The notes under the pieces: model-generated
The model's input: the letters and a program-made list of their open reading frames with translations, nothing else
The model's database searches: none
Told to the model about the DNA's origin: nothing
In this document: in pieces, positions 27,768-42,999 of the stretch
Layout: each line of letters opens with the position of its first letter
Position numbering within the stretch: the stretch's first letter is position 1
Made by a program: the position numbers and the translations under genes
Origin: an uncultured Bacilli bacterium
GTDB taxonomy: Bacteria > Bacillota_I > Bacilli_A > RF39 > UBA660
Assembly: GCA_947631295.1 (NCBI GenBank)
Contig: CANRKU010000006.1
Coordinates: 1-60,402, forward strand
Direction of reading: 5' to 3'
Length of the DNA stretch: 60,402 bases

Positions 27768-27843
27768 GGGCTGTTAGCTCAGTTGGTAGAGCAACTGACT
27801 CTTAATCAGTGGGTCTAGGGTTCGAATCCCTAACAGCCCACCA
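27768..27843 (+). tRNA. tRNA-Lys (anticodon CUU)
   Basis: A full cloverleaf: acceptor GGGCTGT/ACAGCCC, D-arm GCTC/GAGC, anticodon stem ACTGA/TCAGT with loop CTCTTAA (anticodon CTT), T-arm with TTCGAAT, and an encoded CCA (27841-27843). It is 76 nt. Confidence 0.97.
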
Positions 27844-27889: not shown

Positions 27890-27965
27890 GCCGACTTAGC
27901 ACAGTTGGTAGTGCAACGCACTCGTAACGCGTAGGTCGTTGGTTCGAATCCGACAGTCGGCACCA
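27890..27965 (+). tRNA. tRNA-Thr (anticodon CGU)
   Basis: A cloverleaf with acceptor GCCGACT/AGTCGGC, D-arm GCAC/GTGC, anticodon loop CTCGTAA (anticodon CGT), T-arm with TTCGAAT, and an encoded CCA (27963-27965). The innermost anticodon-stem pair is an A-C mismatch (ACGCA against CGCGT). A tyrosine integrase gene begins 65 bases downstream, so the 3' end of this tRNA is the likely integration site of the island. Confidence 0.95.
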
Positions 27966-27974
27966 ATTGAATTT

Positions 27975-28030: not shown

Positions 28031-29173
28031 TTATAAATTATTTAATATATCTACTATTTCATCTTGTACAGTAGGAAATAAATGCATATAAGTATCTTGC
28101 ATGACTTGAATAGTGTGTCCCATTCTATTTGACATCATAAGAAAAAATTTAGCAGTATCTACTTTTACATTTTTCTCATTACTGATTTTTACATATTCGT
28201 TGATTAAAAGACTTACATGAGAATGTCTAAATTCATGGATAGTAATAATCTTGTTTTCAAGCCCTGCTAAGATGAAATATTTATCTTTATAATGGTCTAT
28301 AGTCGTTGATGGCAAAAAGCGAGTATTTCCAAAAACAAACCAATTTTCTTTAAAGTCGGTATATTTTTTCATTTCTTGCTTATATAGTAGTAATTGTTCT
28401 TTTAAAGTATTACTAATTTTAATTTTCCTATTAATATTATTTTTAGTAGATGTTATTGTAAATTTACCTTTTATTTTAGCATACAAAGTTTTATTGACGC
28501 TAATAATATCATTATTAAAATCAATGTCTTTCCATGTCAAAGCTAAAACTTCTCCTTTTCGCATGCCAGTGTAATATAAAAACATAAAAAATGTTTTCCA
28601 TAAAACATTATCTATTACAGATATGAATTTTTGAAATTCTTCATATGTTATGTATCTTATTTTCTCTTCACTTGTTACAACTTTATCATTTTTTGCCTTA
28701 AATCGTTTTGCTATAGTTACTGGGTTTGTTATTACACCATAGTTTATCATGCTAAAATCAAATATTGATTTTAAAATGTTATATAGTTTATTAAGATAAG
28801 CAATTTTATAATTCTTTTTCTCTAATTGTATTTTCCACTCCTGAATATGTGAAATGGTTATTGAATCAATACTCATATTTGCAAAAAAAGATTCTATATG
28901 ATTTTTATAATCGTTTTTATAAGTGCTTACAGTAGATTCTTTACATATTTTACTTAAATTTTTAAAATAGTCTTCAGCAACTAATTTAAATGGTTTATTA
29001 ATAGGATTATCTCTTTTTAATAAAAATAATGCTTGTTCTTGTTCAGCTTCTTTTTTAGTTAAATATCTTTTGGATTTATAGGGCTTATTAATTCCATAAA
29101 AATCTTTTTTATATACTTTAAAATAATATGATCTACCATCTTTAGTTTTATGTTCATCTTTATAAATTGCCAT
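28031..29173 (-). CDS. Phage/ICE-type tyrosine integrase
   Basis: A site-specific recombinase. An N-terminal arm-binding region (Y-F-K-V-Y near residue 17, AP2-like) is followed by a SAM-like core-binding domain (about 65-160) and the catalytic domain (about 170-380). Catalytic residues visible are Arg in TGMRKGEVL, His/Arg in HEFRHSH and the nucleophile Tyr in DTYMHLFP. ATG 29173 is chosen: GGAG then lies eight bases upstream, whereas the upstream ATG 29179 and GTG 29182 are too close. Its orientation toward tRNA-Thr, 65 bases away, marks the left end of the island. It is the most likely enzyme for any recombination at the repeated boxes further right. Confidence 0.93.
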   Translation of the reverse strand: MAIYKDEHKTKDGRSYYFKVYKKDFYGINKPYKSKRYLTKKEAEQEQALFLLKRDNPINKPFKLVAEDYFKNLSKICKESTVSTYKNDYKNHIESFFANMSIDSITISHIQEWKIQLEKKNYKIAYLNKLYNILKSIFDFSMINYGVITNPVTIAKRFKAKNDKVVTSEEKIRYITYEEFQKFISVIDNVLWKTFFMFLYYTGMRKGEVLALTWKDIDFNNDIISVNKTLYAKIKGKFTITSTKNNINRKIKISNTLKEQLLLYKQEMKKYTDFKENWFVFGNTRFLPSTTIDHYKDKYFILAGLENKIITIHEFRHSHVSLLINEYVKISNEKNVKVDTAKFFLMMSNRMGHTIQVMQDTYMHLFPTVQDEIVDILNNL

Positions 29174-29190
29174 TTTCATCACTCCAATTC

Positions 29191-29219
29191 TTTACTTTAT
29201 TTTTAAAATTTAGTATAAT
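29191..29219 (+). promoter_or_regulatory. Promoter pointing away from the integrase gene
   Basis: TTTACT (29191-29196) and TATAAT (29214-29219) are 17 bases apart on the plus strand. No open frame follows; a hairpin terminator lies 55-80 bases downstream, which suggests a small RNA. Confidence 0.5.
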
Positions 29220-29225
29220 TAGAGT

Positions 29226-29303
29226 ACAGAAAAAAGAATTCCGTGCTAGGATTTTTATTTTCTGTACATTTTGACTTCGTATTAACGGTACGAAGTCTTT
29301 TTT
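29226..29303 (+). ncRNA. Candidate small RNA of the island (about 78 nt)
   Basis: The stretch follows a plus-strand promoter and contains two hairpins. GTACAGAAAA (29224-29233) pairs with TTTTCTGTAC (29258-29267). GACTTCGTA (29273-29281) pairs with TACGAAGTC (29289-29297) and is followed by six T (29298-29303). The T-run is only on the plus strand, yet both flanking genes are on the minus strand, so this terminator serves neither. It is antisense to the region between the zinc-ribbon and integrase genes. Transcription is inferred, not shown. Confidence 0.4.
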
Positions 29304-29304
29304 A

Positions 29305-29550
29305 TTACCAAGTATGTCCGCAATTTTGACACACATTGATTCTTTTTTGCGTATTTACAATTTTTTTACGACTACCAATTCCGAATATTTTAAATATTAA
29401 GGCTGGAAAAGTAAAAAATATCCATTTAATAAATGTCCACCACCAACCAATGAGAACCCACCAAATAAAACTATGATGTGCTTTAACTAATTTACTTTCG
29501 TTAACGATTTGAATAGTGACATTCTCACTTTTACACTTTGGGCAAATCAT
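29305..29550 (-). CDS. Small zinc-ribbon membrane protein
   Basis: An N-terminal CPKCKSENV and a C-terminal CQNCGHTW form a split zinc ribbon around a hydrophobic centre (WWVLIGWWWTFIKWIFFTFPALIF) that could be one or two membrane helices. At 81 aa it resembles the small zinc-ribbon proteins often found beside repressors in prophages and integrative elements. A GGAGGT site is just upstream. Function unknown. Confidence 0.75.
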   Translation of the reverse strand: MICPKCKSENVTIQIVNESKLVKAHHSFIWWVLIGWWWTFIKWIFFTFPALIFKIFGIGSRKKIVNTQKRINVCQNCGHTW

Positions 29551-29629
29551 TATATTACCTCCTTTACTTCTAATAATCTATATTAAAAGTTTTCCAATAC
29601 CGCTAGACTACTTTTAATCAAATTTAATT

Positions 29630-30274
29630 TTATAATTTTGTTCTCTTTTCTCTAGCAATGCCTACAACTTTAATAGGTAGTTTTTCTACTTGCTCTTTAG
29701 AAAACATCATAATATCATATCCTGTATTATAAGGTTGTAACACTATTCCTTGCTCATTAACAAGGATTTTTTTAAATGTAGATTCTGTTCCATTAATCAT
29801 AACAGCAACATCTTTACCATTATATAATTCTACATCATCATTTTGTTCAAAAATAACAATATCATTTTCACTATATTTAGGAAACATTGAATCTCCACTT
29901 ATTCTTAAACCATAAAACTTTTTTCCACCGACAGTCCAGTCTTTTGGTATTTCTACATAATCTATAATGTCATTTTGACTTTCTATTGGTATTCCTGCTT
30001 TTATAGTACCATATACAGGTATTTTAACAATATTAGAGTTTATATCAACAATTTCAGCATTATCATAAATAATACTAGAACCAATTAATTTTTCTAATGA
30101 AATATTAAATAATTCAGAAATTTTTATTACATCAGTCATAATTGGAGAACGTTGTCCTAATTCCCATTTTCCAATGGTTGAATAATCTTTATCCAATTTT
30201 TTTGCTAATTCTTCCTGTGTCATTCCATTTTGTAATCTTAAATGTTTTAAATTACTTGAAAAATTATTTTTCAT
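29630..30274 (-). CDS. CI/LexA-like repressor: HTH plus S24 self-cleavage domain
   Basis: The N-terminal XRE-type helix-turn-helix has LKHLRLQNGMTQEELAKKL and DYSTIGKWELGQRSP. The C-terminal S24 peptidase has an Ala-Gly cleavage site in YGTIKAGIP, the catalytic Ser in GDSMFPKYSEND and the Lys in TESTFKKIL. Such repressors keep an element silent and are inactivated by RecA-stimulated self-cleavage after DNA damage. The start at ATG 30274 follows AAGGAGGGG; the longer frame to 30355 overlaps the promoter and operators. It is divergent from the remnant gene and accessory array. Confidence 0.92.
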   Translation of the reverse strand: MKNNFSSNLKHLRLQNGMTQEELAKKLDKDYSTIGKWELGQRSPIMTDVIKISELFNISLEKLIGSSIIYDNAEIVDINSNIVKIPVYGTIKAGIPIESQNDIIDYVEIPKDWTVGGKKFYGLRISGDSMFPKYSENDIVIFEQNDDVELYNGKDVAVMINGTESTFKKILVNEQGIVLQPYNTGYDIMMFSKEQVEKLPIKVVGIAREKRTKL

Positions 30275-30295
30275 TTTCCCCTCCTTGTTTATAGT

Positions 30296-30370
30296 ATAAG
30301 ACAAATTATAAAAAAAAACAAGACAAATTGTCAAAAAAGTATTGACATAAGACAAATAGTCTTATAGAAT
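30296..30370. promoter_or_regulatory. Divergent promoters with three repressor operator-like sites
   Basis: Three copies of an AAGACAAAT motif occur: ATAAGACAAATTAT (from 30296), AAGACAAATTGTCAA (from 30320) and the 19-bp palindrome ATAAGACAAATAGTCTTAT (30346/30348 to 30364). The minus-strand promoter TTGACA (30334-30329) and TATAAT (30310-30305), 18 apart, drives the repressor. The plus-strand TTGACA (30342-30347) and TAGAAT (30365-30370), 17 apart, points to the right. The sites overlap both promoters, as in a lambda-like switch. Confidence 0.75.
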
Positions 30371-30481: not shown

Positions 30482-30662
30482 AACTAGATGAAAATGAATA
30501 TAGAATTTTAATCAAGAGTAGAAATAATAATGTTAGAAAATGAAAATTAATAAAAGTTTTTTCAAGTTATTGATACTTTTGTTCTTTTTTGTTATATCAC
30601 TAATAGTGAGTGATATTTATATCATTCGTGCTTTGTGAGAGTTGTAAATATCTACGACACTC
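30482..30662. other. Non-coding stretch between the remnant gene and the first repeat module
   Basis: No supported gene is seen here. It contains short inverted runs such as ATATCACTAATAGTGAGTGATAT near 30595-30617 that could be a decayed hairpin, and it leads into the first copy of the intergenic module at 30663. Confidence 0.4.
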
Positions 30663-30773
30663 GCACCAGATTGATACCAAACTTGCACTTTTATAGTTCG
30701 AGTTTTAAAATGAAAAAATTTATAGTTTAAATTGATATACATGTCAATTTATAAAACAAACTTGTATATTGAC
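30663..30773 (+). repeat. Intergenic module copy A
   Basis: It opens with GCACCAGATTGATA (30663-30676). The hairpin arms are partly eroded (AACTTGCACT against AGTTCGAGTT). The -10 equivalent is a degenerate TATAGT (30721-30726), then the leader with ATTGATATACATGTCAATTT and TATATTGAC. A further TATAAT (30796-30801 region) and AAAGGAG lie before the GNAT gene. Confidence 0.85.
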
Positions 30774-30824
30774 CTAAGCTAATATACTTATTAAATTATA
30801 ATATATATAGTATAAAGGAGAAAT

Positions 30825-31373
30825 ATGAATATGAATATGAATAAAAATACAAAATTAATTTCTAAGTTAAAAGAATTAGAAAACCTATTGCCGAGTGATG
30901 AACAAGAACTAGAGCAAGATGATTCTGAAGAAAAAATTAATGAAGCAAGAAATAAGATTTACAGTTCTCGTTTAGTTAGTTCAAATGAAATTATTGATTT
31001 ATATAAAGAAGACAATCATATTGAAGGCTATTATGATATATATTTACATAACACTTTTACGTATATCGGCCATATAGGTGTTCAACCATTCGGAAAAAAT
31101 CTTAATAATATATCTTATGAAATCGATGATAAATATAGAGGAAATGGTTATGCTACACAAGCTGTATACACTTTAACAAATTATTTAAGTGAAAATGGAG
31201 TGGAAAACATAGTAATAATATCAAAAAAAGATAATAAATCTTCCATTAGAGTAATTGAAAAATTCCATGAAATGATGCCAGCATTTGAAGTAGAAATAGA
31301 AAATGGTGAGAATGTGGCTTTTTATTATTTCAAGATAAATAATAAATTACAAGATAAAGCTATTAAAAGATGA
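30825..31373 (+). CDS. GNAT-family N-acetyltransferase
   Basis: An acetyl-CoA-dependent transferase. The GNAT motif A is SYEIDDKYRGNGYATQAVY (about residues 103-121), with the R-G-N-G-Y-A acetyl-CoA loop, followed by a motif-B-like NIVIISKKDNKSS. About 50 acidic and lysine-rich residues precede the domain. The first codons are a triple ATGAAT repeat (MNMNMN), so the exact start may be any of three ATGs. It is the first gene behind repeat module A. The substrate is unknown; RimJ/RimL-like ribosomal or antibiotic acetylation are possibilities. Confidence 0.8.
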   Translation: MNMNMNKNTKLISKLKELENLLPSDEQELEQDDSEEKINEARNKIYSSRLVSSNEIIDLYKEDNHIEGYYDIYLHNTFTYIGHIGVQPFGKNLNNISYEIDDKYRGNGYATQAVYTLTNYLSENGVENIVIISKKDNKSSIRVIEKFHEMMPAFEVEIENGENVAFYYFKINNKLQDKAIKR

Positions 31374-31700
31374 TGTTAGCAGTTCAAAAAATAATACTAT
31401 TTCCAATTTAAGAAATGTAAATGATATAAATATAGTCTTAAAAAAGTACGAAGATGATTTAAGAGAACACTCTAATAAATTAGAAATTTGAAAAAGAAAA
31501 TCAAAATTCGTGATGATAGAATTGAAGAATTAGAATATGATTTAGAAGGTGTAAATGATACTATTGATGAATTAGAAGATAAAGTATTAACACTGCAAGA
31601 AACATTGAATTACTTTAAAGAATTATAGCAAAAGTTTATAGAGTTCTTAAAAGAAAAATTCTTCTCTACTGATAAATATGATAAAATAGTAAGCAATTAA
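31374..31700 (+). pseudogene. Decayed coiled-coil gene, possibly relaxase/Mob C-terminus
   Basis: This non-coding stretch of over 300 bases still reads as protein across two frames with stops at TGA near 31488 and TAG near 31626. The readable segments are charged coiled coil (RIEELEYDLEGV, DELEDKVLTLQETLNYF) and then KFIEFLKEKFFSTDKYD. That pattern resembles the C-terminal tail of plasmid Mob/Pre-type relaxases. No N-terminal relaxase domain remains. The resemblance is from memory and moderate. Confidence 0.45.
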
Positions 31701-31716
31701 GGGAGGTTTTCAGTTT

Positions 31717-33555
31717 ATGATAGATTTAGAAAAATTGGATTTAGAGTATAATGATTATAAAAATATTAGAGTTCTATATATTAAATATAAAAGTGAATTT
31801 GAAAAATTTAACAAAAAAAATAGTGAGAAGCTAAATGGTTTATTAGTTGAATACAATTTGATTAAAAATATAAGAAGAAATAGTTCTAGGCAGGATACAA
31901 TGCCTGATGAATTACTTGAAGATTTTATAGAGAAGAATCCATTGTTTGGAGAATGGTATGATTTAGATTGTAAAGTGAAAAATTATAAAAATAAATTGCA
32001 ACAATATTCTTCTACTACCAATGCATTTATGGAATGTTCTAGATTTATTTGTTTAAAACATAAAGAGGATGATGGCTACGATTTATTTGATTTATTTACA
32101 CAAGATAAACTAGATTTAAGCCAATATGATAATGATAAACAACAATATATTATAAATGATTTAAAAAGCCATCATTCATTTATTTGTTATGTAACTCAAG
32201 AAGATTTGCCACTTCTAATGCAAGTAGTTAAAGAAGTAGATAAAGCGATTGCTTACAATGACAATGATACAGAAGATGAAATGGAACAAAAATTGTGGGA
32301 AGAAATAACTAGATGCTATATAATAGAAAAAGAATTTGAAAAAAGAAAGAACTTAATATCATTAAAAGAAATAAATAATATAGAACATGAAAAAAAATTA
32401 GTAGAATTGTTAGGATATAATCTGATTGGACCCGATATGTGCAATCGTTGGTTGATTACAGATGAAAATAATAATCAGGTAGGATTTATACAATATAAAA
32501 AGTTATTTAAGAAAAATAATAAAAAGGGGCTTCCAGCAACATATGGATATCATATAGAAATTAATAGCAATGAAATTAGTTATAATTCAACAAGAAAAGT
32601 TGATAAGGAAAATGATAAAATAGGTATTGATACTAGATTCAATTATGAATTAGATATTAAAAGAAAAGATGGAAATATAGATCATTTAGAGGTAAGCTTT
32701 GGGGAGTATCCGGGATTAACTTTATGGAGTAAAGAATATGGGTTTATAAATTTTAAACTAGATAATGATGGATTATATTTAAACTTTAAGAGTAAAACAG
32801 AAAACTTTAATATTGAAGAAACTATAGTATATAAAACTCATAATAGGCAATTAAGTAATATTCCAAATGAATATGCATATCAATTGAGCTATTGTGATAA
32901 AAGTATAAAAATTGATAATGATAGTTCAAAAGGAATAAAAAGTCGTCAAATAGTTGGTACAAGTACACCATATCAACAAGACTCTAATGAAATAAAAGTA
33001 GTAGAAACAACTTGGGTGAATAGTAGAAAAAGAAATAATAGAGAAACCATTGTCAAAGGAACTATTGAAGAAATGATAGTAAAACATAACATGGGAATTG
33101 CTTCATTTAATCATTTTAGATTTTTAATAAATCAAATATTGCCTTTTAAACAAGAAGTTATTTCTTCAATGATAGATTATTATAAAAAAGAAGAATTAGC
33201 ATTATTTATTCCTGAATTAGGAGCAGCAAGTGAAGAAATGATACAACAAGGTAATTATGATTATAAGGAAAGTAACTGGATTCAAGAAATGCAAAAAGTT
33301 GCATCAATGTTAACAAGAGAAAAAAGTATGGAATTAATTGATGATCGTAAGGAAATTATTGAAGAAAAAATGAAAGAAATTGAGAAAAGAGAAGACGAAT
33401 CAGAAATTTTAGGTATGCTAGAAGATGAAGATTATGATGAAGAAGAATGGAATATGCTTTTAGGAACAAGTAGACAAAGTAACTCTTTAAAGAAAGATAA
33501 TGTTCAAGAAAAAACTTTAGTTAGGAAGAAAAAAGATAGTAAAACAACTGAATAG
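31717..33555 (+). CDS. Large unrecognised island protein (612 aa)
   Basis: No family was recognised. The N-terminal half (1-230) is helical and lysine/aspartate rich. The middle (about 230-400) looks like a beta-rich domain with CNRWLITDENNNQVGF, EYPGLTLWSKEYGF and SYNSTRKVD. The C-terminal part is helical with a long acidic coil (EIIEEKMKEIEKREDE) and a basic tail. There is no signal peptide or membrane helix. GGGAGG precedes the start. A module copy follows directly after the stop, as for the other array genes. It is probably mobile-element cargo. Confidence 0.8.
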   Translation: MIDLEKLDLEYNDYKNIRVLYIKYKSEFEKFNKKNSEKLNGLLVEYNLIKNIRRNSSRQDTMPDELLEDFIEKNPLFGEWYDLDCKVKNYKNKLQQYSSTTNAFMECSRFICLKHKEDDGYDLFDLFTQDKLDLSQYDNDKQQYIINDLKSHHSFICYVTQEDLPLLMQVVKEVDKAIAYNDNDTEDEMEQKLWEEITRCYIIEKEFEKRKNLISLKEINNIEHEKKLVELLGYNLIGPDMCNRWLITDENNNQVGFIQYKKLFKKNNKKGLPATYGYHIEINSNEISYNSTRKVDKENDKIGIDTRFNYELDIKRKDGNIDHLEVSFGEYPGLTLWSKEYGFINFKLDNDGLYLNFKSKTENFNIEETIVYKTHNRQLSNIPNEYAYQLSYCDKSIKIDNDSSKGIKSRQIVGTSTPYQQDSNEIKVVETTWVNSRKRNNRETIVKGTIEEMIVKHNMGIASFNHFRFLINQILPFKQEVISSMIDYYKKEELALFIPELGAASEEMIQQGNYDYKESNWIQEMQKVASMLTREKSMELIDDRKEIIEEKMKEIEKREDESEILGMLEDEDYDEEEWNMLLGTSRQSNSLKKDNVQEKTLVRKKKDSKTTE

Positions 33556-33642
33556 AATTTTATTTATCAATCACTTAAACAATAATAAAATTTTAAAAGT
33601 GAAAAAAGATGGCAAAAAAAGTTTGAAATAACTTTCTTACTC

Positions 33643-33771
33643 GCACCAGATTGATATGAAACTCGGACTTTTATAGTTCGAGTTTCAAAATCTGTTAAAT
33701 TATGATACAATAGACACTAAACTTTTAAATTGAAATTTGTCAATTTAGAAAACATACTTGCAAATTGACAA
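33643..33771 (+). repeat. Intergenic module copy B
   Basis: Box GCACCAGATTGATA (33643-33656), hairpin AAACTCGGACT/AGTTCGAGTTT, -10 equivalent TGATACAAT, then a full leader with the inverted repeat TTGTCAAT (33737-33744) and ATTGACAA (33764-33771). It precedes the 273-aa gene. Confidence 0.9.
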
Positions 33772-33799
33772 ATCCGTTCCTAATTATTGAGGTGACTAT

Positions 33800-34621
33800 A
33801 TGAGTAAAAAACGAAAAAAATTAGATAAGCAACTAAAGCATGATAGACAAATTTCTAGAGATAAAAGAAATTCATTAAAGAAAGAAATAAAAGAGAATGT
33901 TTCTTTACATAGAAATAATGAAATTTTTCATATTATATTTATTTCTAAAGAAACAAAAAATATGGAAAAAATATTATTTGATATGTATCCCTTAAGTAAT
34001 GGGTATTTAATTAATATACCAATTATTACTACACAAATGATAAATGAATGTGAAGATAAGACTCCCAAAGGGATAATTTTACATTATTTTGGGATAGAAT
34101 CTGACTGCATTAAATTAATAGATGGAACAAACTTAATTATTGTCAAAAATTTTAGGGTTATTAATAACTTTAAAAATCTAATAGAATTAATAGTACGTCC
34201 ATATAATGAATACACTTGGTATGATAATAATTGTATAACGACGTTATATGGAGAAAGAATTTTTAAAGGAGAAAAATTAAAGGATTTTTTTGCTACTAGA
34301 AATGATTTAGAAAGCCTCTTTGTATTTCAAGACACTATAACAGAAATATTACTGTATAGAATAATACAAAACAAAATAAATAACAATGAATTTTTAAATA
34401 GTTATTGTGGATTTTTCTACAAAAGCACTGGTATTGAAACAGGCAACAGAAAAAAACAAAATGATTCTGTTGGTTGGTCAACACTTTATAAATTGATTGC
34501 TAAAGATGATGAAAGATTAAAAGAAATATTGGCTAATGAAAAAAATGAAATACATGAATTATTAGGTGATGATGATTCCAACCCCAAAAAGTTGATTTTG
34601 CGACAAAAAAATAATAAATAA
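33800..34621 (+). CDS. Unrecognised island protein (273 aa)
   Basis: No family was recognised. A very basic N-terminus (KKRKKLDKQLKHDRQISRD) is followed by a mixed alpha/beta region (FHIIFISKETKNMEKILFD and later YTWYDNNCITTLYGERIF) and a helical C-terminus. The basic start could bind nucleic acid. No membrane or secretion signals are seen. The ribosome site TGAGGTGAC is good. It lies alone between module copies B and C. Confidence 0.75.
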   Translation: MSKKRKKLDKQLKHDRQISRDKRNSLKKEIKENVSLHRNNEIFHIIFISKETKNMEKILFDMYPLSNGYLINIPIITTQMINECEDKTPKGIILHYFGIESDCIKLIDGTNLIIVKNFRVINNFKNLIELIVRPYNEYTWYDNNCITTLYGERIFKGEKLKDFFATRNDLESLFVFQDTITEILLYRIIQNKINNNEFLNSYCGFFYKSTGIETGNRKKQNDSVGWSTLYKLIAKDDERLKEILANEKNEIHELLGDDDSNPKKLILRQKNNK

Positions 34622-34661
34622 TGTAAACAGTAATAAAAAGTTGTCGTATTTCTTACTTTAG

Positions 34662-34757
34662 GCACCAGATTGATAGTTACTCGGAAAATTCGAGTAAAAA
34701 TAGGAAACTCAGACTATTATAGTTCGAGTTTTAAAATGATCAAATTCATGATATAAT
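34662..34757 (+). repeat. Intergenic module copy C (short form)
   Basis: Box GCACCAGATTGATA (34662-34675), an extra mini-hairpin ACTCGGAAAATTCGAGT, then the main hairpin AAACTCAGACT/AGTTCGAGTTT and an extended -10, TGATATAAT (34749-34757). The TTGTCAAT leader is missing, so the 86-aa gene has a short 5' leader with TTTAGGAG. Confidence 0.9.
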
Positions 34758-34781
34758 GATATAAGTTTAGGAGATGTAAAT

Positions 34782-35042
34782 ATGAACTTACGATATGAAC
34801 TTAAGGAAAAATTATGCGATATTAAGGATAATTTGAGAGATTTGATGTCATATACAATTCCGGAAAAAGAACCTTATGATGCACAACAAAAAGCTATAAC
34901 TCGAGGTGTGCAAATATTAGAACAACAATATCAAACTATTAAGCAAAAAAATCAAAGTATGGATGAACATAAAGAATATGAAAAAATTACTGAAGAACCT
35001 AGATTAGTAAAAACAATGTGTCCCCAAAACGAGAAAAAGTAA
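34782..35042 (+). CDS. Small unrecognised island protein (86 aa)
   Basis: Function unknown. The product is helical and charged (LRYELKEKLCDIKDNLRDLM, then a QILEQQYQTIKQK helix), without membrane segments. It has its own module promoter and a TTAGGAG ribosome site. The size and charge would suit an antitoxin, immunity or small regulatory protein, but nothing in the sequence proves it. Confidence 0.65.
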   Translation: MNLRYELKEKLCDIKDNLRDLMSYTIPEKEPYDAQQKAITRGVQILEQQYQTIKQKNQSMDEHKEYEKITEEPRLVKTMCPQNEKK

Positions 35043-35123
35043 AAACGAATTTGATAAAATTTATTTAGTAATTGATTCATAAATCAATAACCTTAAAAGA
35101 AATTGTAGATAATTATGTTACTT

Positions 35124-35245
35124 AACTAGATTGATACTCAAACTTTTGTAGTCCAAGTTTTAATATGGTTGAGTTTATGATAAAATATTTATAGATTGAA
35201 ATTGATATATTTGTCCGTTTAGAAAACATGCTTGCATATTGTCAA
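35124..35245 (+). repeat. Intergenic module copy D (diverged)
   Basis: Box reduced to CTAGATTGATA, hairpin partly eroded (CAAACTTTTGTAGTCCAAGTTT), -10 TGATAAAAT (35178-35186), and a leader with TTTGTCCGTTTAGAAAACATG, CTTGCAT and ATTGTCAA (35238-35245). A further ~95 AT-rich bases without a gene precede the 314-aa gene. Confidence 0.8.
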
Positions 35246-35341
35246 GCAATAGGTGTGAGGTAGCAATTATTTTAGATTGTATAAAATTATTGTAATTATT
35301 TAAGAAAGTAATTATAATATATATTTACGGGAGGGTTTATT

Positions 35342-36286
35342 ATGTTAGAAATTGAAAAGTTAGATGATGAGTTATATAGAGCGATGTATGGATTGCCAAG
35401 AATCGGAGATGTTCATATCATATGGGAAACAATTAAAAGCAAACCAGAAATATTAAGAGAAGCTGTTAAAATTAAAAGAAATAAATGGGATAATGGAGAT
35501 TTAGTGAATGGATTAACAATTTGTGATGCAATATTAACTGATTTTAGCAATGTTGATCAAGTAGCATACAATGAATTAATTCAAAATATTTATACAAATA
35601 CGGATATAGCTAGGATTGTTATAGACGGTGCAAGTAATGGTGGTGATTCTTACTTATTAATGAGTTTATGGAACAATAATATAAAATTAACTGAAAAGCA
35701 AAAAGATTTTGCAGTTAATGAAGCAATGAATAAAATAGGTACTACTAGATATGAAAATAATATGAATAATTACTCTAGAGAACTTGATGGCAAAGGAATT
35801 ACAGATGAGCAAACTGTGTATACTGAATTTAGTGGGTCTATTAATCCTGTAGGTGCTAAAACAGGTAGTATGTATATGGCAAGTGTTTTTGCTTCATTAA
35901 GCAATACTCAAGCTCATGGATGTGGAGATTTTGATATTAGATATTGGATACTTAGAAATCCAAACTGGACTTCGGATGAAAAGCAAAAGTTAATTATGGA
36001 TTTCTGGGCTGATGATGATGTGTATGATGGAGTTTTAGAACAATGGGAGTGGGGTGTAGCCAACGATAGTGCTAATTATAAAGGCGAAACATTGCCACAA
36101 TTTGATAAATCTCAAATGTATGAATATTCTTATGAAGAACTGTTAAAATTCTATGGTAATAAAAAGACTACTGATAGAATATGGAATGAAATACAATTTT
36201 GCAAACAGATGCATAAGTTAAGACCTCAACAATGGGAAATAGAATCTTCAATGCCAAAAAAATTAGTTAAATTTACTCAAAATTAA
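35342..36286 (+). CDS. Unrecognised island protein (314 aa)
   Basis: No family was recognised. The product is acidic and tryptophan-rich, with repeated helical patterns in the first half (IIWETIKSKPEILREAVKIK; TICDAILTDFSNVD; LLMSLWNNNIKLTEKQKDFA) that hint at a helical-repeat scaffold. The second half has AHGCGDFDIRYWILRNPNW and DFWADDDVYDGVLEQW. No signal peptide is seen. The ribosome site GGGAGGG is strong. It is expressed from module copy D. Confidence 0.75.
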   Translation: MLEIEKLDDELYRAMYGLPRIGDVHIIWETIKSKPEILREAVKIKRNKWDNGDLVNGLTICDAILTDFSNVDQVAYNELIQNIYTNTDIARIVIDGASNGGDSYLLMSLWNNNIKLTEKQKDFAVNEAMNKIGTTRYENNMNNYSRELDGKGITDEQTVYTEFSGSINPVGAKTGSMYMASVFASLSNTQAHGCGDFDIRYWILRNPNWTSDEKQKLIMDFWADDDVYDGVLEQWEWGVANDSANYKGETLPQFDKSQMYEYSYEELLKFYGNKKTTDRIWNEIQFCKQMHKLRPQQWEIESSMPKKLVKFTQN

Positions 36287-36377
36287 GAAATTAAAAAAAA
36301 TATAAAGCAATAATATATTATAGTTATTTTATTAAAGATTCTTTAGCTCAAAAAGTTGTCATATTTCTTCCTTTAGG

Positions 36378-36524
36378 GCACCAGATTGATGGGAAACTCG
36401 AACTTTATAGGAAAACTCGAACTTTATAGTTTGAGTTTTAAAATACTTAAAAATATGATAAAATGTCATATAGATTAAATTGCTACATTTGTCAATTTAG
36501 AAACATGCTTGTATATTAACATAA
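36378..36524 (+). repeat. Intergenic module copy E
   Basis: Box GCACCAGATTGAT (36378-36390). AAACTCGAACTTTATAGG is duplicated, giving two left hairpin arms before AGTTTGAGTTTT. The -10 is TGATAAAAT (36456-36464). The leader has TTTGTCAATTTAG, CATGCTTG and TATATTAAC. It precedes the HAD gene. Confidence 0.9.
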
Positions 36525-36550
36525 CAATATTCATTAAGGGGTATGATAGC

Positions 36551-37183
36551 ATGATAAAAAGACTAATTTTTGATATAGATGGTACTCTTATTAAAAATGT
36601 TCGATTTCAGGATAGTATCACACAGACATTAAAAGAAACTAGAATATATTCAGATAAGAATTTAGAAATATTTTTAAATTCTATTAAAGATTATGAAAAG
36701 CATTACGACAATTATAATTCCACTGATTATTTAAATTTTTTGGGTAATCAATTAGGTATAAACTTAGAAAGCAATTTTCTTGAAATATTTTTTAAACATT
36801 TAAAAACTGCAATTCCTAATAATTTTGATGGAATACAAGAAATACAAGAAACTTTACAATATTTAAGCAAAAAATATGAATTAGTTTTATTATCTAATTA
36901 TTTTGAAAAATCTCAAAGAAATAGATTAGAAGCAATGGGAATAAATAAATATTTCAAAAAATATTATGGTGAAAATAAAATAAAACCATATGATGAATCC
37001 TATTGGCAAGCCAAAGGAATATTCCAGCCATCTGAATGCATAATAATTGGAGATGATTTGGAATTAGATATTAAAAAGCCTTCAAAACTTGGATTCAGAA
37101 CTATTTTAGTTACTGATGAAGAAGACATTTTAATAGATACCATAAAAATTCAAAATATTAAAGAATTAAGAAAAATATTATAG
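36551..37183 (+). CDS. HAD-superfamily hydrolase (phosphatase type)
   Basis: Motif I is IFDIDGTLI (nucleophile Asp near residue 8), motif II is LLSNYF, the conserved Lys is in NKIKPYDESYW and motif III is IIGDDLELDIKKPSKLG. The cap is small and helical, as in phosphoglycolate phosphatase-like members. The substrate is unknown. ATG 36551 has AAGGGG nine bases upstream; the longer frame from 36509 has none and lies in the module leader. The next module begins immediately after its stop. Confidence 0.88.
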   Translation: MIKRLIFDIDGTLIKNVRFQDSITQTLKETRIYSDKNLEIFLNSIKDYEKHYDNYNSTDYLNFLGNQLGINLESNFLEIFFKHLKTAIPNNFDGIQEIQETLQYLSKKYELVLLSNYFEKSQRNRLEAMGINKYFKKYYGENKIKPYDESYWQAKGIFQPSECIIIGDDLELDIKKPSKLGFRTILVTDEEDILIDTIKIQNIKELRKIL

Positions 37184-37332
37184 TTTTCGTTATTTCTTTC
37201 TTTAGGGAGCAGATTGATATAAACTCGGACTTTTATAGTTTAAGTTTTAAAATGCCAAATTTATGCTATAATTTTTATGGGTTGAATTGATATATTTATC
37301 AATTTAGAAAAACACACTTGCACATTAACAAA
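37184..37332 (+). repeat. Intergenic module copy F
   Basis: It starts at the HAD stop codon with TTTTCGTTATTTCTTTCTTT. The box is slightly changed (GAGCAGATTGATA, 37207-37219). The hairpin is AAACTCGGACT/AGTTTAAGTTT, the extended -10 is TGCTATAAT (37264-37272) and the leader has ATTTATCAATTTAG, CTTGCA and ATTAACAA. Confidence 0.9.
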
Positions 37333-37362
37333 ATCAATATAAATATTAGATAGGGTGGAATA

Positions 37363-37848
37363 ATGCATTTTTATTTATTAGATCATGAAGCAACATTTAA
37401 AGATTTAGAAAAATTTAATTTTCCTAATCAAAAAATAGGAGTAATTGCTCATATAGAAAATTCTGATGGAGAAATACTTTTACAACAAAGAGGAGAAAAA
37501 TCACGGGATGAAAATGATTTATTTGAAGAAATTGGTGGAAAGGTTGATCTAGAAGATGTAAGCCTTCAATCAGCAATTATTCGTGAAATAAGAGAAGAAG
37601 CAGGAGAGGAAATTAATTTAGAATTTATTGGTTCTATTGGAATTTATCACTGTTTTAAAAATGATATTAATTGGATATTTGTTATTTATTTTGCTAAATA
37701 TATCGATGGTAATATTAAAGTGATGGAACCAACAAAATGCAAGAGTTATCATTTCTTTAAATATGAGGAAGCTATAAAATCAGATAAAGTAACCGATAGC
37801 TGTAAATATTTGATTAAAGCTATTAATAAATATCATTTAAATAAATAA
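37363..37848 (+). CDS. NUDIX hydrolase
   Basis: The NUDIX box is GGKVDLEDVSLQSAI followed by IREIREEAGEEI (about residues 63-90), matching G-x5-E-x7-R-E-x2-E-E-x-G-U. Length 161 aa is normal. Such enzymes cleave nucleoside diphosphates linked to another group; the substrate is unknown. It is the last gene of the array, behind module F, and the GGGTGG ribosome site is good. Confidence 0.9.
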   Translation: MHFYLLDHEATFKDLEKFNFPNQKIGVIAHIENSDGEILLQQRGEKSRDENDLFEEIGGKVDLEDVSLQSAIIREIREEAGEEINLEFIGSIGIYHCFKNDINWIFVIYFAKYIDGNIKVMEPTKCKSYHFFKYEEAIKSDKVTDSCKYLIKAINKYHLNK

Positions 37849-37856
37849 TATAAAAA

Positions 37857-37887
37857 TAATCGTTATCTCATTTCTTCCTTTACAACC
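37857..37887 (+). repeat. Truncated module copy G at the array end
   Basis: AATCGTTATCTCATTTCTTCCTTTA matches the upstream part of the modules seen before copies C, E and F, but the similarity stops exactly where GGCACCAG would begin. It is taken as the right edge of the array. Confidence 0.6.
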
Positions 37888-38702: not shown

Positions 38703-39737
38703 TTATTTTAATTTTTGAATTATAATACTAACAGTAGGACTAATAAGAGGAGAATTTAATTTTAGAGAGCTTGCAGGTGGACTTTCTATAATAATAGAGT
38801 TCTTACCTAAATTGGTTAATTGACACCATTGTCTATCATTAGTAAAATCTAGAATTCCAGATCCTGTAACTAGAGTAGGAGTAGTTCCATCGGCCCAAAG
38901 AGAGGTACCCATATATACAATATCTTCTCCAACCTTTTTAAAACCAATAGAAATCATATTTGAATTCGTTTGTGGACTAATTGGTGGAACTATTCGTGCA
39001 AGTACGGAAAAATCAATTTTATAAACTCCTGATTCAAAAAATGTAATAGTATTATTTTCACTATTCATATAAAAAAGAGAATCTGTATCAATAGGTTTTG
39101 AAGCTATAGGTAAGTTTTCATCTGGTAAAATAGTACGACTTTGGTCTCCTAAATCTTGGGATGTAGTTAGAAAAAAAGCAACAGGTAAATTTACAGTTCC
39201 TGGTATTCCTTGGGGACCTTGGTCTCCTTTTGGACCTTGATCACCCTTAGGACCTTGAGGACCTTGGTCTCCTTTGGGACCACGGATAATCCCAACATTA
39301 ATCCATTTATCTGTTTCATCTGCCCAGACATATAAGTAATCTCCTACTAAGTAAGAATCACCCTTAGAACCTTGTGGATGATTCTTTTGTAGTTCTTGTT
39401 CAGTAGCATAATATCCTAAAATGGTTACACTATTTCCATCTATTCCTTGAGGACCAGTAGGACCCGTTGCACCTATTTCTCCTTGATCACCCTTAGGACC
39501 TCGTATTACTCCTACATCCATCCATTCTTTAGTAGAATTCATCCATACATAAAGTTGTTCTCCAACGATATAGGCATTTCCTATTTCTCCAGTTGGATGT
39601 TCTTTGATAAAATCATCATAATTATCATAGCTACCTAAAATGGTCATAGTAGCACCAACTTCTCCTTGAGGTCCAGTTGGCCCAGTAGGTCCTAAGATAA
39701 AACAATTTTTTGGTAAATAAGAAAATTTATCATTCAT
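38703..39737 (-). CDS. Collagen-like spore-surface protein with duplicated globular insert
   Basis: The protein mixes [10 protein letters not shown]-type collagen triplets (about residues 16-28, 80-98, 152-180) with two copies of a ~50-aa globular module. Each copy reads TILG-Y, a short helix, HP-G-GDSYLVG-YLYVW and W-(D/N)VG-IRGPKGDQG. The last ~165 residues form a C-terminal beta-rich domain like the TNF-like cap of exosporium collagens. No signal peptide is seen, as expected for a protein made in the mother cell. It is probably exosporium or a related surface fibre. Confidence 0.8.
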   Translation of the reverse strand: MNDKFSYLPKNCFILGPTGPTGPQGEVGATMTILGSYDNYDDFIKEHPTGEIGNAYIVGEQLYVWMNSTKEWMDVGVIRGPKGDQGEIGATGPTGPQGIDGNSVTILGYYATEQELQKNHPQGSKGDSYLVGDYLYVWADETDKWINVGIIRGPKGDQGPQGPKGDQGPKGDQGPQGIPGTVNLPVAFFLTTSQDLGDQSRTILPDENLPIASKPIDTDSLFYMNSENNTITFFESGVYKIDFSVLARIVPPISPQTNSNMISIGFKKVGEDIVYMGTSLWADGTTPTLVTGSGILDFTNDRQWCQLTNLGKNSIIIESPPASSLKLNSPLISPTVSIIIQKLK

Positions 39738-39786
39738 ATTTTTTCTACCTTTCTAATCATTGATATACTATATCATATGAATCAAA

Positions 39787-41007
39787 CTAGCTATAAATAC
39801 TATTTGTCATATTAGTAACAGCAGTTAGGATATAAGATATTTTATACCAGGTTTGATAATTGACTTCTCCTGTTTGTGATAAAGAGAAAACTTTTTGAAA
39901 TGTTTTAACTGCATCTTTAGTATCACTTCCAAAATAACCATTTGGATTTTTAATAACAGGAATTCCTGGATAACTCCCTCTAATATAGTTTAGGGTATTT
40001 TGTAAGATATAAACATCATTACTACAATCTCCTTCTTTTAAATTGGTAGTAAAAGAATAAGGATAATCTTGGGTAGTTTTTGCTTCATAAATATTAATAT
40101 TACTTCCATAGTAAAATCTTAAAATATCTAAAGCACTATAACCTCTATCTCCTAATGACTTTGATCCCCATTGGCTTAAATAACCTTCCTCTGTTGTATC
40201 ACTTTTATAATGAGCTAGTAATGGTTCTATTCGAATTCCACTTCGAATATAGTTTGTAAAAATATCATCTACTATATTAGAAATTGGTTCAAAAATTGTA
40301 CCATTTCTTGTATATTTTTGATCATAAGTGGTTGTCGATGTGATTGTAAAATTATATCCTCTACTAGGATACCATTCAGTATAAATGCGATTTAAAGTAA
40401 AAGAAATAATTGCTAAGATATTTGCTTTTATAGTTTCTGTTGGCCAAGTACTATAAATCTCACTGCTAGCAACGTTCTTGATATAATCAATAAAAGGAAC
40501 GGTATAATTAATGGCATTCGTATTACTTGGGATTCCATCATGAACAATGATATTTGCTGGAATTAAAACTTCTGATAAAAGAATTGGGGCAATTCCTGAA
40601 TCGGTGGTAGTATCTTCTTGTTCAATATATGGTGGATAGTCTCCCCATAATGTATTTGGACTAATTTCTGAAACATTTTCATTTTGATTTTCATCAATAG
40701 AAGTTAAGTAAATATTTTGGATAGAAGTAATTCCATCAAATATTTGTACTCCTTCAATTGTAGTAGGAGTAAGACCTAATGCTGTTACACTAACATCATA
40801 AGTTTCATATGGTCTGGTTGTTTGTTGTTCTTCTTCGGAATAATTTTTACTAACGGTTTCTAACGTTAATAATTCTGTTTGTCCATTTTCGTTAGTATTA
40901 GTAGTCATTATAATATTACCGTTTTTTGATATAGTAACTGTTGCATTTTTAACAGGATTTGCAATACTATCACTATATACATTTATTAATAAATATCCGT
41001 TTATCAT
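39787..41007 (-). CDS. SleC-like spore cortex-lytic protein
   Basis: The order is an N-terminal CnaB-like/beta region (YLLINVYSDSIANPVKNATV), then a SleC-type catalytic region of the SpoIID fold with TVPFIDYIKNVASSEIYSTW, ANILAIISFTLNRIYTEWY, YLSQWGSKSLGDRGYSALDIL and a Tyr-rich end. A C-terminal peptidoglycan-binding domain (about 325-390) contains DVYILQNTLNYI, GYFGSDTKDAVKTFQ and TGEVNYQTWYK. SleC proteins are lytic transglycosylases that open the cortex at germination. No signal peptide is seen. It is divergent from the LysM gene. Confidence 0.82.
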   Translation of the reverse strand: MINGYLLINVYSDSIANPVKNATVTISKNGNIIMTTNTNENGQTELLTLETVSKNYSEEEQQTTRPYETYDVSVTALGLTPTTIEGVQIFDGITSIQNIYLTSIDENQNENVSEISPNTLWGDYPPYIEQEDTTTDSGIAPILLSEVLIPANIIVHDGIPSNTNAINYTVPFIDYIKNVASSEIYSTWPTETIKANILAIISFTLNRIYTEWYPSRGYNFTITSTTTYDQKYTRNGTIFEPISNIVDDIFTNYIRSGIRIEPLLAHYKSDTTEEGYLSQWGSKSLGDRGYSALDILRFYYGSNINIYEAKTTQDYPYSFTTNLKEGDCSNDVYILQNTLNYIRGSYPGIPVIKNPNGYFGSDTKDAVKTFQKVFSLSQTGEVNYQTWYKISYILTAVTNMTNSIYS

Positions 41008-41073
41008 ATTTCACCTCATTATATTATATATAATATCTTTCCAATAAATGAATATAATTGATTAGGTGATGTT

Positions 41074-42189
41074 ATGTTAGAAAATAATTTAAAATTAGGT
41101 GATACTGGTAATAATGTTAAAATTTTACAAGAAAAGTTAAAAATTTTGGGTTTTTATAATGCTATGATTACAGGAAGTTTTGGTCTTAGTACTGAAGTAG
41201 GGGTAAAGGCTTTTCAAAGACAATATAATTTAGAAGAAACAGGAATTGTGGATAACAGAATGTGGCAATTATTATTTGAACTTACTGAAACAGCAGAAGA
41301 TATGACTCGTGTTAATTCTCTTTTAAGTATTGGTTCCACTGGTGAGGAAGTTCGGGAATTACAAACAAAATTAAAGGCACTTTTATATTATACTGGTTCT
41401 ATTAATGGTATTTATGATTTGGAAACAGAAAATGCTGTAAAAAGGTTTCAGCTAAATAATGATTTAACCACAACAGGTACTACAAATAATCAAACATGGA
41501 ATTTAATTAATACTTTGTATGGAAATTTAAGTGATTGTGTAACGGGTGGTGTTGGTGATACTAGCACGACTTATACTGTGAAAAGTGGAGATACTTTGTA
41601 TTCGATAGCAAGAAAATATAATACAACCGTAGATGAATTAAAAAAATTAAATAATCTTACAAGTAATACTTTAAGTATTGGTCAAGTTTTAAAAATACCA
41701 ACTACTACTGATAGTGGCGATAGTACTTATACAACTTATACCGTTAAAAGTGGAGATACATTGTATTCGATAGCAGAAAAATATAATACAACGGTAGATG
41801 ATTTAAAGAGATTCAATAATCTTACAAGTAATACCTTAAGTATTGGTCAAGTTTTAAAAATACCAACACCTACTGATAGTGGTGATAGTACTTATACAAC
41901 TTATACTGTGAAAAATGGGGATACTTTATATTCTATTGCTAGAAAATATAATACAACTGTAGATGAAATCAAGCGTTTCAATAATTTAACTAGTAATACT
42001 TTAAGTATTGGTCAGAATTTAAAAATACCAATAACTGGTGGAGGAAATGGTACCATCACTTATACTGTGAAAAGTGGAGATACATTGTATTCGATAGCAA
42101 GGAAATATAATACAACGGTAGATCGTATTAAAAATTTAAATAATTTAACGAGTAATACCTTACGTGTAGGGCAGATATTACGAATTTAA
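41074..42189 (+). CDS. Protein with two peptidoglycan-binding domains and four LysM repeats
   Basis: Two PG_binding_1 domains (about residues 8-65 and 85-140) are followed by four LysM repeats (about 165, 222, 276 and 327 onward), each reading YTVK(S/N)GDTLYSIA and NNLTSNTL. The repeats are near-identical in DNA sequence, so they arose recently. No signal peptide or catalytic domain is visible. This suits a spore-coat assembly or cortex-binding protein such as SafA-like morphogens. The AGGTGATGTT ribosome site is good. Confidence 0.85.
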   Translation: MLENNLKLGDTGNNVKILQEKLKILGFYNAMITGSFGLSTEVGVKAFQRQYNLEETGIVDNRMWQLLFELTETAEDMTRVNSLLSIGSTGEEVRELQTKLKALLYYTGSINGIYDLETENAVKRFQLNNDLTTTGTTNNQTWNLINTLYGNLSDCVTGGVGDTSTTYTVKSGDTLYSIARKYNTTVDELKKLNNLTSNTLSIGQVLKIPTTTDSGDSTYTTYTVKSGDTLYSIAEKYNTTVDDLKRFNNLTSNTLSIGQVLKIPTPTDSGDSTYTTYTVKNGDTLYSIARKYNTTVDEIKRFNNLTSNTLSIGQNLKIPITGGGNGTITYTVKSGDTLYSIARKYNTTVDRIKNLNNLTSNTLRVGQILRI

Positions 42190-42195
42190 TATATG

Positions 42196-42232
42196 AAAAA
42201 AGTATTAGAAATAATTCCAATACTTTTTCTTT
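42196..42232. terminator. Bidirectional terminator between LysM and collagen-like genes
   Basis: AAAAAAGTATT (42196-42206) pairs with AATACTTTTT (42219-42228), with T-run and A-run flanks. Confidence 0.8.
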
Positions 42233-42234
42233 TA

Positions 42235-42999
42235 TTAACGAAGTTGTATGATAACTAAGTGTGCTGAAACTGCTTCTGTTCCACCTGCTGATGGAGTAAT
42301 CGTTAGTGCGGTTGAGTTACCAGCGGGATTTCTTACTGTTAAAATAGAGTTGATTTCTGTAGTTGTGATTATAGCAATTCCTACAATTTGACTAGTACCT
42401 GTTGCTCTACCTACAGTAGTATATGCTAGATTTTCGTTATTTAACGTTAGCATTAATTGACCTGCTTCGTCAACTCCTACTTGAAATATGATTAGATAGG
42501 TACCAATTTGTGCTAAATTAAATGAATTTTCATTGATTCTAGCAATTCCAGAACCACTATTAGGACCATTTTGTGGAAAATCAACATCACTTCCGACTGC
42601 AATAGTTTCTGTATTATTAGGTGGCATTAATGCATAAAAATCAGCATAGTTTAGTATTCCACCAGCAGGACCTGTAGCTCCTGTTGTACCTTGAGGACCA
42701 GTAGGTCCTGTTGGCCCAGTAGGTCCACTAGCAGGTCCTTGAGGTCCGGTAGGCCCAGTAGGTCCAGTGGGTCCTCCAGCAGGCCCCTGAGGTCCAGTTG
42801 GTCCAGTTGTACCTTGAGGCCCGGTAGGTCCGGTAGGTCCACCAGCAGGTCCCTGTGGTCCAGTTGGTCCGGTAGGACCTGGCATAAATTGATAGCATGA
42901 ACAGTAGTTAGTATCATTATTTGGTTTTATTTCTTGGTGATTTGTAGTATTATTGCAATCATCATCATTATTATGGCAATAATAGAACGATTGATTCAT
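42235..42999 (-). CDS. BclA-like exosporium collagen protein
   Basis: An N-terminal Asn/Asp/Cys-rich stretch ends at [13 protein letters not shown], followed by about 75 residues of GPT/GPQ/GPA triplets. The C-terminal domain (about 118-254) is the BclA TNF-like cap, with [46 protein letters not shown] and [16 protein letters not shown]. BclA forms hair-like filaments on the spore surface. The N-terminus lacks a secretion signal. GGAGGATTACC is the ribosome site, and the upstream promoter looks SigK-type. Confidence 0.9.

Follow-up and report, generated by a model that had tools for sequence, protein, structure and literature searches.

An array of six gene cassettes lies at positions 30669–37887 of a 60,402-nucleotide (nt) contig from an uncultured Bacilli bacterium. 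This entire contig, hereafter the window, belongs to a 1.1-Mb metagenome-assembled genome (MAG) that is 92% complete. Comparison with related genomes establishes where the cassettes begin and end, that they are anchored at tRNA genes, and that they have been exchanged between genera and between loci. We consider it quite probable that the array consists of mobile single-gene cassettes at tRNA genes, moved in trans by a large serine recombinase (LSR) that a small mobilizable element encodes.

The array is built on one repeated module. An earlier, sequence-only reading recognized six copies of it (A–F), comprising in order a T-rich part, the box GCACCAGATTGATA, a hairpin (AAACTCGnACT-TTTAT-AGTnCGAGTTT) and an extended -10, with all modules and cargo genes on the plus strand. 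Order and strand are confirmed, and a module profile finds the intact window copies far above chance, at E = 6e-10 to 3e-18; the lengthened modules C and E are split by the profile, and their best pieces reach 3e-12 and 8e-8. The box is exact at 30663, 33643 and 34662, has one mismatch at 36378 and two at 37206, and persists as the degenerate copy AACTAGATTGATA at 35124. Module F was rightly recognized, but it starts at 37206 rather than 37184. The module A palindrome occupies 30679–30705 on the plus strand, and the same element recurs at 33659, 34705, 36412 and 37221, with a degenerate copy at about 35137. As had been proposed, most modules carry a promoter: TG-extended promoters occur in the same register in modules B, C and E, although the region as a whole has no more promoter-like sites than expected by chance. 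The leader that follows the promoter (GTCAATTTAGAAAACACACTTGCATATTGAC; window 33712–33794 and 35186–35268, with 48 relatives) is highly conserved in sequence, but the 50 leaders yielded a consensus fold of 0 pairs, and the structured RNA leader of the sequence-only reading is rejected. An Rfam search returned only tRNA and transfer-messenger RNA (tmRNA) matches.

What the sequence-only reading overlooked is that the CACCA of the module is a tRNA 3' end. On contig C5 of the same genome, a second array begins with a module that immediately follows the CCA at the 3' end of the tmRNA gene. We therefore read the GCACCAGATTGATA box as a joint, in which ACCA, like the end of a tRNA, is followed by the left end (LE) of a cassette. 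The T-rich part, previously assigned to the module as its upstream portion, is the right end (RE) of the preceding cassette. A cassette runs from an LE (about 10 nt, the palindrome and usually an extended -10 promoter) to an RE of about 30 nt finishing in ACCA. REs fall into two classes, class 1 (AAAGTTGTnGTACTTCTTCCTTTAGGGCACCA) and class 2 (AAAGTTGTAGATAACTTCTTCATTCGCACCA). Hairpins are present in many class 2 ends and in hardly any class 1 ends, which have no consistent fold; on these grounds a folded, attC-like RE is rejected.

The same junctions recur across the order. We classified 121 distinct LE copies, of which 63 abut a tRNA or tmRNA gene called by ARAGORN, all at the same offset (the CCA), and 53 abut a conserved RE; 116 of 121 start at one or the other. 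Among the five left over, L157 and L136 resemble uncalled tRNA ends, while L130 and L137 resemble RE variants. The targets comprise Thr, Leu, Ala, Met, Phe, Glu, Arg and Lys tRNAs as well as tmRNA. Scatter of the module across chromosomes would have spoken for a bare promoter, but the classified copies elsewhere are cassette starts. The discriminator base is A in all 71 tRNAs followed by a recognized LE type (71/134, versus 0/31 for other discriminators; Fisher p about 4e-9 without correction for relatedness); because these loci were picked by their left end, the counts are not a genome-wide rate, though the contrast between discriminators stands. LE-to-LE intervals have a median of 1.3 kb, and 22 of 40 hold one open reading frame (ORF), with the caveat that longer intervals can hide other left-end types.

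Within the family, 93 of 386 genomes, spanning 53 of the 150 genera sampled, carry the LE palindrome pattern; it occurs in none of 106 genomes from 21 other families of the class. A reversed-pattern control gave 0 matches across the 386 genomes. Exact matches among 84,980 species genomes are uncultured Bacilli MAGs, nearly all of the 'Lapin' (rabbit) series; one matching MAG is labelled Clostridia and one Tenericutes. We also observed a third left-end type, TACTCGGAAAATTCGAGTA followed by a terminator (L079 1540–2170, L010 about 1640–1960, L007 about 2030–2260). Behind it, an ORF for a small hydrophobic peptide, encoded on the other strand, overlaps a repeat-rich RNA region, a pair that resembles type I toxin-antitoxin systems and has no Rfam match.

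In the window, the anchor of the locus is tRNA-Thr(cgt) (27890–27965, plus strand), whose 3' end GGCACCA is of the proposed attB type; its upstream neighbor, tRNA-Lys(ctt) (27768–27843, plus strand), is conserved in the sister species. The six cassettes, all on the plus strand, are preceded by a class 2 RE ending in GCACCA (30604–30668, plus strand). Five of them hold one gene each, as the sequence-only reading described. Cassette A (30669–33648) is instead composite, with an LE, a GNAT gene (30825–31373), a Mob_Pre relaxase remnant (31390–31682), a 612-aa gene (31717–33555) and a class 2 RE up to the ACCA at 33648. Cassette B (33649–34667) comprises an LE with promoter, the leader, a 273-aa gene and a class 1 RE, and cassette C (34668–35128) an LE with two palindromes, an 86-aa gene and a class 2 RE with the degenerate core AACTA. 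Cassette D (35129–36383) has an LE, the leader, a 314-aa gene and a class 1 RE up to CACCA. Cassette E (36384–37211) has a doubled palindrome in its LE, a HAD phosphatase gene (36551–37183) and a class 1 RE. Cassette F (37212–37887) consists of an LE, a NUDIX gene (37363–37848) and the terminal class 1 RE (about 37855–37887), whose ACCA core is degraded. Since the cores of D, F and this last RE are degraded, the window array may be partly fixed.

Cassettes differ between close relatives and are shared between genera. The tRNA-Lys/tRNA-Thr region of sister species G307 is 89% identical to the window up to the CCA; homology ends within 3 nt of the tRNA-Thr CCA, at 27968, and resumes at 39789. 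At this locus G307 has none of the window's cassettes and no window integrase, and other genes stand there. Two genomes of one genus, G105 and G223, likewise differ in their cassettes at shared tRNA-Leu and tRNA-Met loci. Conversely, cassettes D, E and F and parts of A recur at other loci in other genera, and the homology stops at the cassette boundaries. Cassette D is 81% identical from LE to RE in L142, and its first 393 bp are 87% identical to a cassette at the tmRNA CCA in G253. The tmRNA array of G223 contains a cassette 89.5% identical to cassette E up to the RE, and the tRNA-Leu(caa) array of that genome one 89% identical to cassette F (37309–37882). Parts of cassette A are found in L090, L147, L081, L165 and L082, the Mob_Pre remnant being 84–85% identical to L090 and L147. 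The clearest case pairs a tRNA-Arg array (L081 8681–10228) with a tRNA-Thr locus (L092 6214–7757): the two are 84% identical over 1552 bp, left and right ends lie at the edges of the high-scoring segment pair, and the homology starts and stops at CACCA. Cargo proteins are 77–99% identical in different genera behind different tRNAs. The gain, loss and shuffling of unrelated cargo that the sequence-only reading envisaged are thus borne out, and the refuting outcome it named, modules and genes fixed together, is contradicted by the sister species. The junctions are unlikely to be misassemblies at repeats, since LE copies share only about 70–85% identity and many independent MAGs show junctions of this kind.

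Cassette cargo is mixed, including GNAT, NUDIX, TatD, glutamine amidotransferase, deformylase, phosphatases and many unknowns. Only five PADLOC defense families matched among 79 cargo proteins (including QatD, viperin-like, PDC-S07 and PDC-S22), and on this count we reject the arrays as defense islands. As for vehicles, the cassette left-end type LE1 is absent from 2.9 million viral contigs and from plasmids, and a second type, LE2, is absent from viral contigs. Beside the variable region of the window, we noted collagen-like Gly-X-Y (GPTGPQGP) proteins at 38703–42999; their neighbors, of 406 and 371 aa (39787–42189), are conserved in the sister species.

The probable mobilizer is a serine recombinase on another contig, not the phage-type tyrosine integrase, the only recombinase visible to the sequence-only reading. 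A serine-recombinase search placed one LSR beside two arrays. It belongs to a family of elements that comprise a 91–94-aa ORF, an LSR of 615–642 aa, a Mob_Pre relaxase of about 450 aa, at least one cargo gene and a class 2 RE that ends in CACCA, beyond which come cassettes or native DNA. At readable left junctions, these elements start directly after the CCA of tRNA-Thr, tRNA-Leu or tmRNA; the element in L090 starts after a degenerate GCGCCA. Their left-end layout is the same as that of cassettes (10–11 nt, then a palindrome), and LE2, seen between cassettes, is the left-end type of the LSR element. RE profiles made without L231, L238 and L250 match the ends of the elements in these three at 23.3, 22.1 and 22.3 bits.

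The LSR matches PF00239 and PF07508 above cut-off, with a weak zinc ribbon. It reaches 131 bits against NCBIfam CcrB, where the cut-off is 900; it is a relative of CcrB, not a member. Its similarity to TnpX (chain 2mhc, E 1e-6) is only distant. The Mob_Pre proteins score 46–60 bits versus a cut-off of 25.5, paralleling the Mob/Pre relaxase TnpZ of Tn4451-type elements. By eye, no further conjugation genes were recognized in the element, which spans about 5–8 kb. The ORF that immediately follows the tRNA and comes before the LSR is always the one of 91–94 aa (L231 9041–9322, L238 6157–6432, L250 6925–7206 and others); it has no Pfam or NCBIfam match and is a candidate directionality factor. The window's own genome has one LSR element, on contig C3 behind tRNA-Leu. 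Because the RE of that element shares 94% identity with the 67 nt preceding module A, and cassette A contains part of a Mob_Pre gene, an LSR element of this type was probably once present at the window locus, and the RE at 30604–30668 would be its relic.

We propose the following mechanism. An excised circle with the joint RE-ACCA-LE would serve as attP and a tRNA 3' CCA as attB, with strand exchange carried out in trans by the Ccr/TnpX-like LSR at a core within the CCA. The likely source of this enzyme is the small integrative mobilizable element (IME) described above (91–94-aa ORF, LSR, Mob_Pre relaxase and cargo), which has the same kind of ends. Derivatives would lose the LSR and relaxase and retain an accessory gene, its expression driven by the LE promoter; cassettes are probably such non-autonomous derivatives, like staphylococcal cassette chromosome (SCC) elements without ccr. 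We prefer an LSR as the enzyme because the sites share only ACCA (CCA for related elements at tRNA-Gly and tRNA-Trp) and an LSR needs a 2-bp core; the LSR of Tn4451 recombines at two identical base pairs (PMC5704250).

Several observations weigh against this proposal. The attP and attB roles, the action of the LSR in trans and the position of the core are what we infer from sequence, no recombination event having been observed. G223 and G136, both incomplete MAGs with many cassettes, have no close LSR homologue, and G136 has no PF00239 match; the LSR may be supplied in trans, lost or missing from the incomplete MAGs, or these arrays may be dead. Related LSRs sit at tRNA-Gly (TCCA) and tRNA-Trp (GCCA), such that target choice differs within the family. 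Cassette LE1 and the LE of the element are alike in architecture more than in sequence, and tandem insertion at the RE-LE junction is left unexplained by the LSR model. Finally, the terminators of ordinary tRNAs also contain inverted repeats about as far from the tRNA as those of LEs; the LE hairpins may also replace the terminator that an insertion displaces.

Ancient site-specific insertion, now inactive, could also have been followed by shuffling mainly through homologous recombination between LEs after DNA uptake, an account we regard as unlikely. LE repeats of about 100 bp at many loci would provide substrates for it, cassette-rich MAGs without the LSR exist, and the degraded window cores D, F and terminal RE fit an inactive system. 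However, at their typical 70–85% identity LE copies are poor substrates, one and the same cassette family follows a tRNA as well as an RE, the ACCA junctions being exact, and proteins that are 95–99% identical in different genera indicate recent movement.

A true integron or a relative of one, in which the window's or an Xer-like tyrosine integrase recombines attC-like sites, is quite improbable. It would account for the architecture (single-gene cassettes in one orientation, unrelated cargo and an integrase gene adjoining the array), and at least one tyrosine recombinase is present in all 31 genomes tested, with the cassette-rich G223, G106, G299 and G136 having an Xer-like pair and no other. 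However, the window integrase (28031–29182, minus strand; PF00589) reaches 29.3 bits against the integron-integrase model TIGR02249, whose cut-off is 265, and two Xer proteins also fall below it. Its homologues show no association with modules (38/93 genomes with modules versus 111/293 others), and it is rejected as mobilizer. The shared ACCA of the joint is shorter than the usual 6–8-bp tyrosine overlap, and the two conserved ends are different, unlike an attC pair. The array also lacks an IntI integrase beside it, and inspection by eye found no attC sites (paired R and L boxes, folded) between cassettes, where the junctions are RE-ACCA-LE. The array is integron-like in architecture, yet it is not an integron, contrary to the membership that the sequence-only reading entertained.

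The tyrosine integrase and the stretch 29305–30271, with an S24/helix-turn-helix phage-type repressor (29630–30271, minus strand), are a separate element inserted at the same tRNA-Thr, unlikely to be the mobilizer. The closest homologues of the integrase share a different flank (AGGTACTATTTAGGTACTATTTT). As an observation in its own right, 28031–30355 is wedged between tRNA-Thr and the array and belongs to a separate tRNA-targeting phage or satellite family; in many genomes of the family, integrase homologues occupy tRNA 3' ends of their own (Ser, Ala, Thr, His, Gly and Glu). Two other candidates were rejected: the host Xer pair, which also occurs in cassette-free genomes and has no LE near it, and a Y1 HUH transposase (IS200/605-like), present in 4/15 cassette-rich versus 6/15 cassette-free genomes. 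A search of the single-gene cassettes for tyrosine recombinases, the only type sought there, found none.

The alternative named by the sequence-only reading, a regulon that arose as one promoter module was copied ahead of resident genes, would explain the promoter in most copies and the differing cargo, but it is scarcely credible: modules start at a tRNA CCA or RE in 116 of 121 copies, LE, gene and RE move as one homology block between tRNA loci and genera, and the sister species lacks the genes too. Cassette-bounded homology already refutes its simple form.

Movement of single-gene cassettes by an LSR, our preferred explanation, suggests that cassette arrays can stockpile genes without the tyrosine integrase of integrons. 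The anchor is a tRNA 3' end, available at many genomic places at once. The left end occurs in 53 of 150 genera sampled from a single order of gut bacteria with small genomes, and the bacteria that carry such cassettes come mostly from rabbits. An LSR with a minimal ACCA site could explain much of the accessory gene pool in these uncultured bacteria, and it might serve as a multi-site integration tool.

Known systems each share part of this design. As in integrons, single-gene cassettes are stockpiled in one orientation and exchanged among species of one habitat, and GNAT genes are common; unlike integrons, tRNA ends serve as anchors here in place of a single attI, and a serine recombinase is the probable enzyme. 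Carriage of a promoter does not separate the two as sharply as the sequence-only reading held, as chromosomal integron cassettes can carry promoters (PMC8618304). Acinetobacter pdif/dif modules (XerCD) also set small gene modules between short recombination sites. However, those are Xer-type dif sites on plasmids, whereas here directly oriented units with two different ends occupy chromosomal tRNA loci. In a comparison by eye, no resemblance was seen between the LE palindrome and dif-like Xer sites (11+6+11 bp).

Serine-recombinase systems come closer. SCC/SCCmec and the Enterococcus cassette chromosome, with SCC/Ccr nearest in enzyme given the Ccr-like LSR, share use of one site and orientation, tandem composites, recombinase-less members and a short shared core. 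They use one protein gene and are multi-gene units of tens of kilobases, whereas here at least 12 tRNA/tmRNA species receive units that mostly comprise one gene, the majority of them with a promoter of their own, and the autonomous element has a relaxase; every anchor found is a tRNA or tmRNA gene, none the rlmH 3' end used by SCC. Tn4451-type IMEs, which the autonomous element resembles, and the accretion of cis-mobilizable elements (CIMEs) offer an LSR, a 2-bp core and decayed tandem neighbors, but Tn4451 has low site specificity, and the cited part of PMC5704250 does not describe long arrays of single-gene derivatives. Nearest in placement are the Dehalococcoides ssrA islands, whose serine recombinase DsiB is homologous to CcrB; they follow tmRNA in tandem, and some have no integration module (PMC3146451). 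Those islands use ssrA only, insert in the T-loop with a 20-bp direct repeat and are large, with reductive dehalogenase genes (PMC3146451), whereas here insertion is at the CCA end of many tRNAs, with about 4 bp shared and units of about 1.3 kb.

In the open-access literature searched we found no description of single-gene, promoter-bearing, LSR-type cassettes arrayed at many tRNA CCAs across an order. We tentatively suggest that they may represent a new gene-capture system, an analogue of the integron whose integration sites are tRNA genes ending in ACCA. In such a system, promoters and tRNA-proximal hairpins would come with the cassettes, and the serine recombinase of a small mobilizable element would carry single genes across dozens of genera within one gut order.

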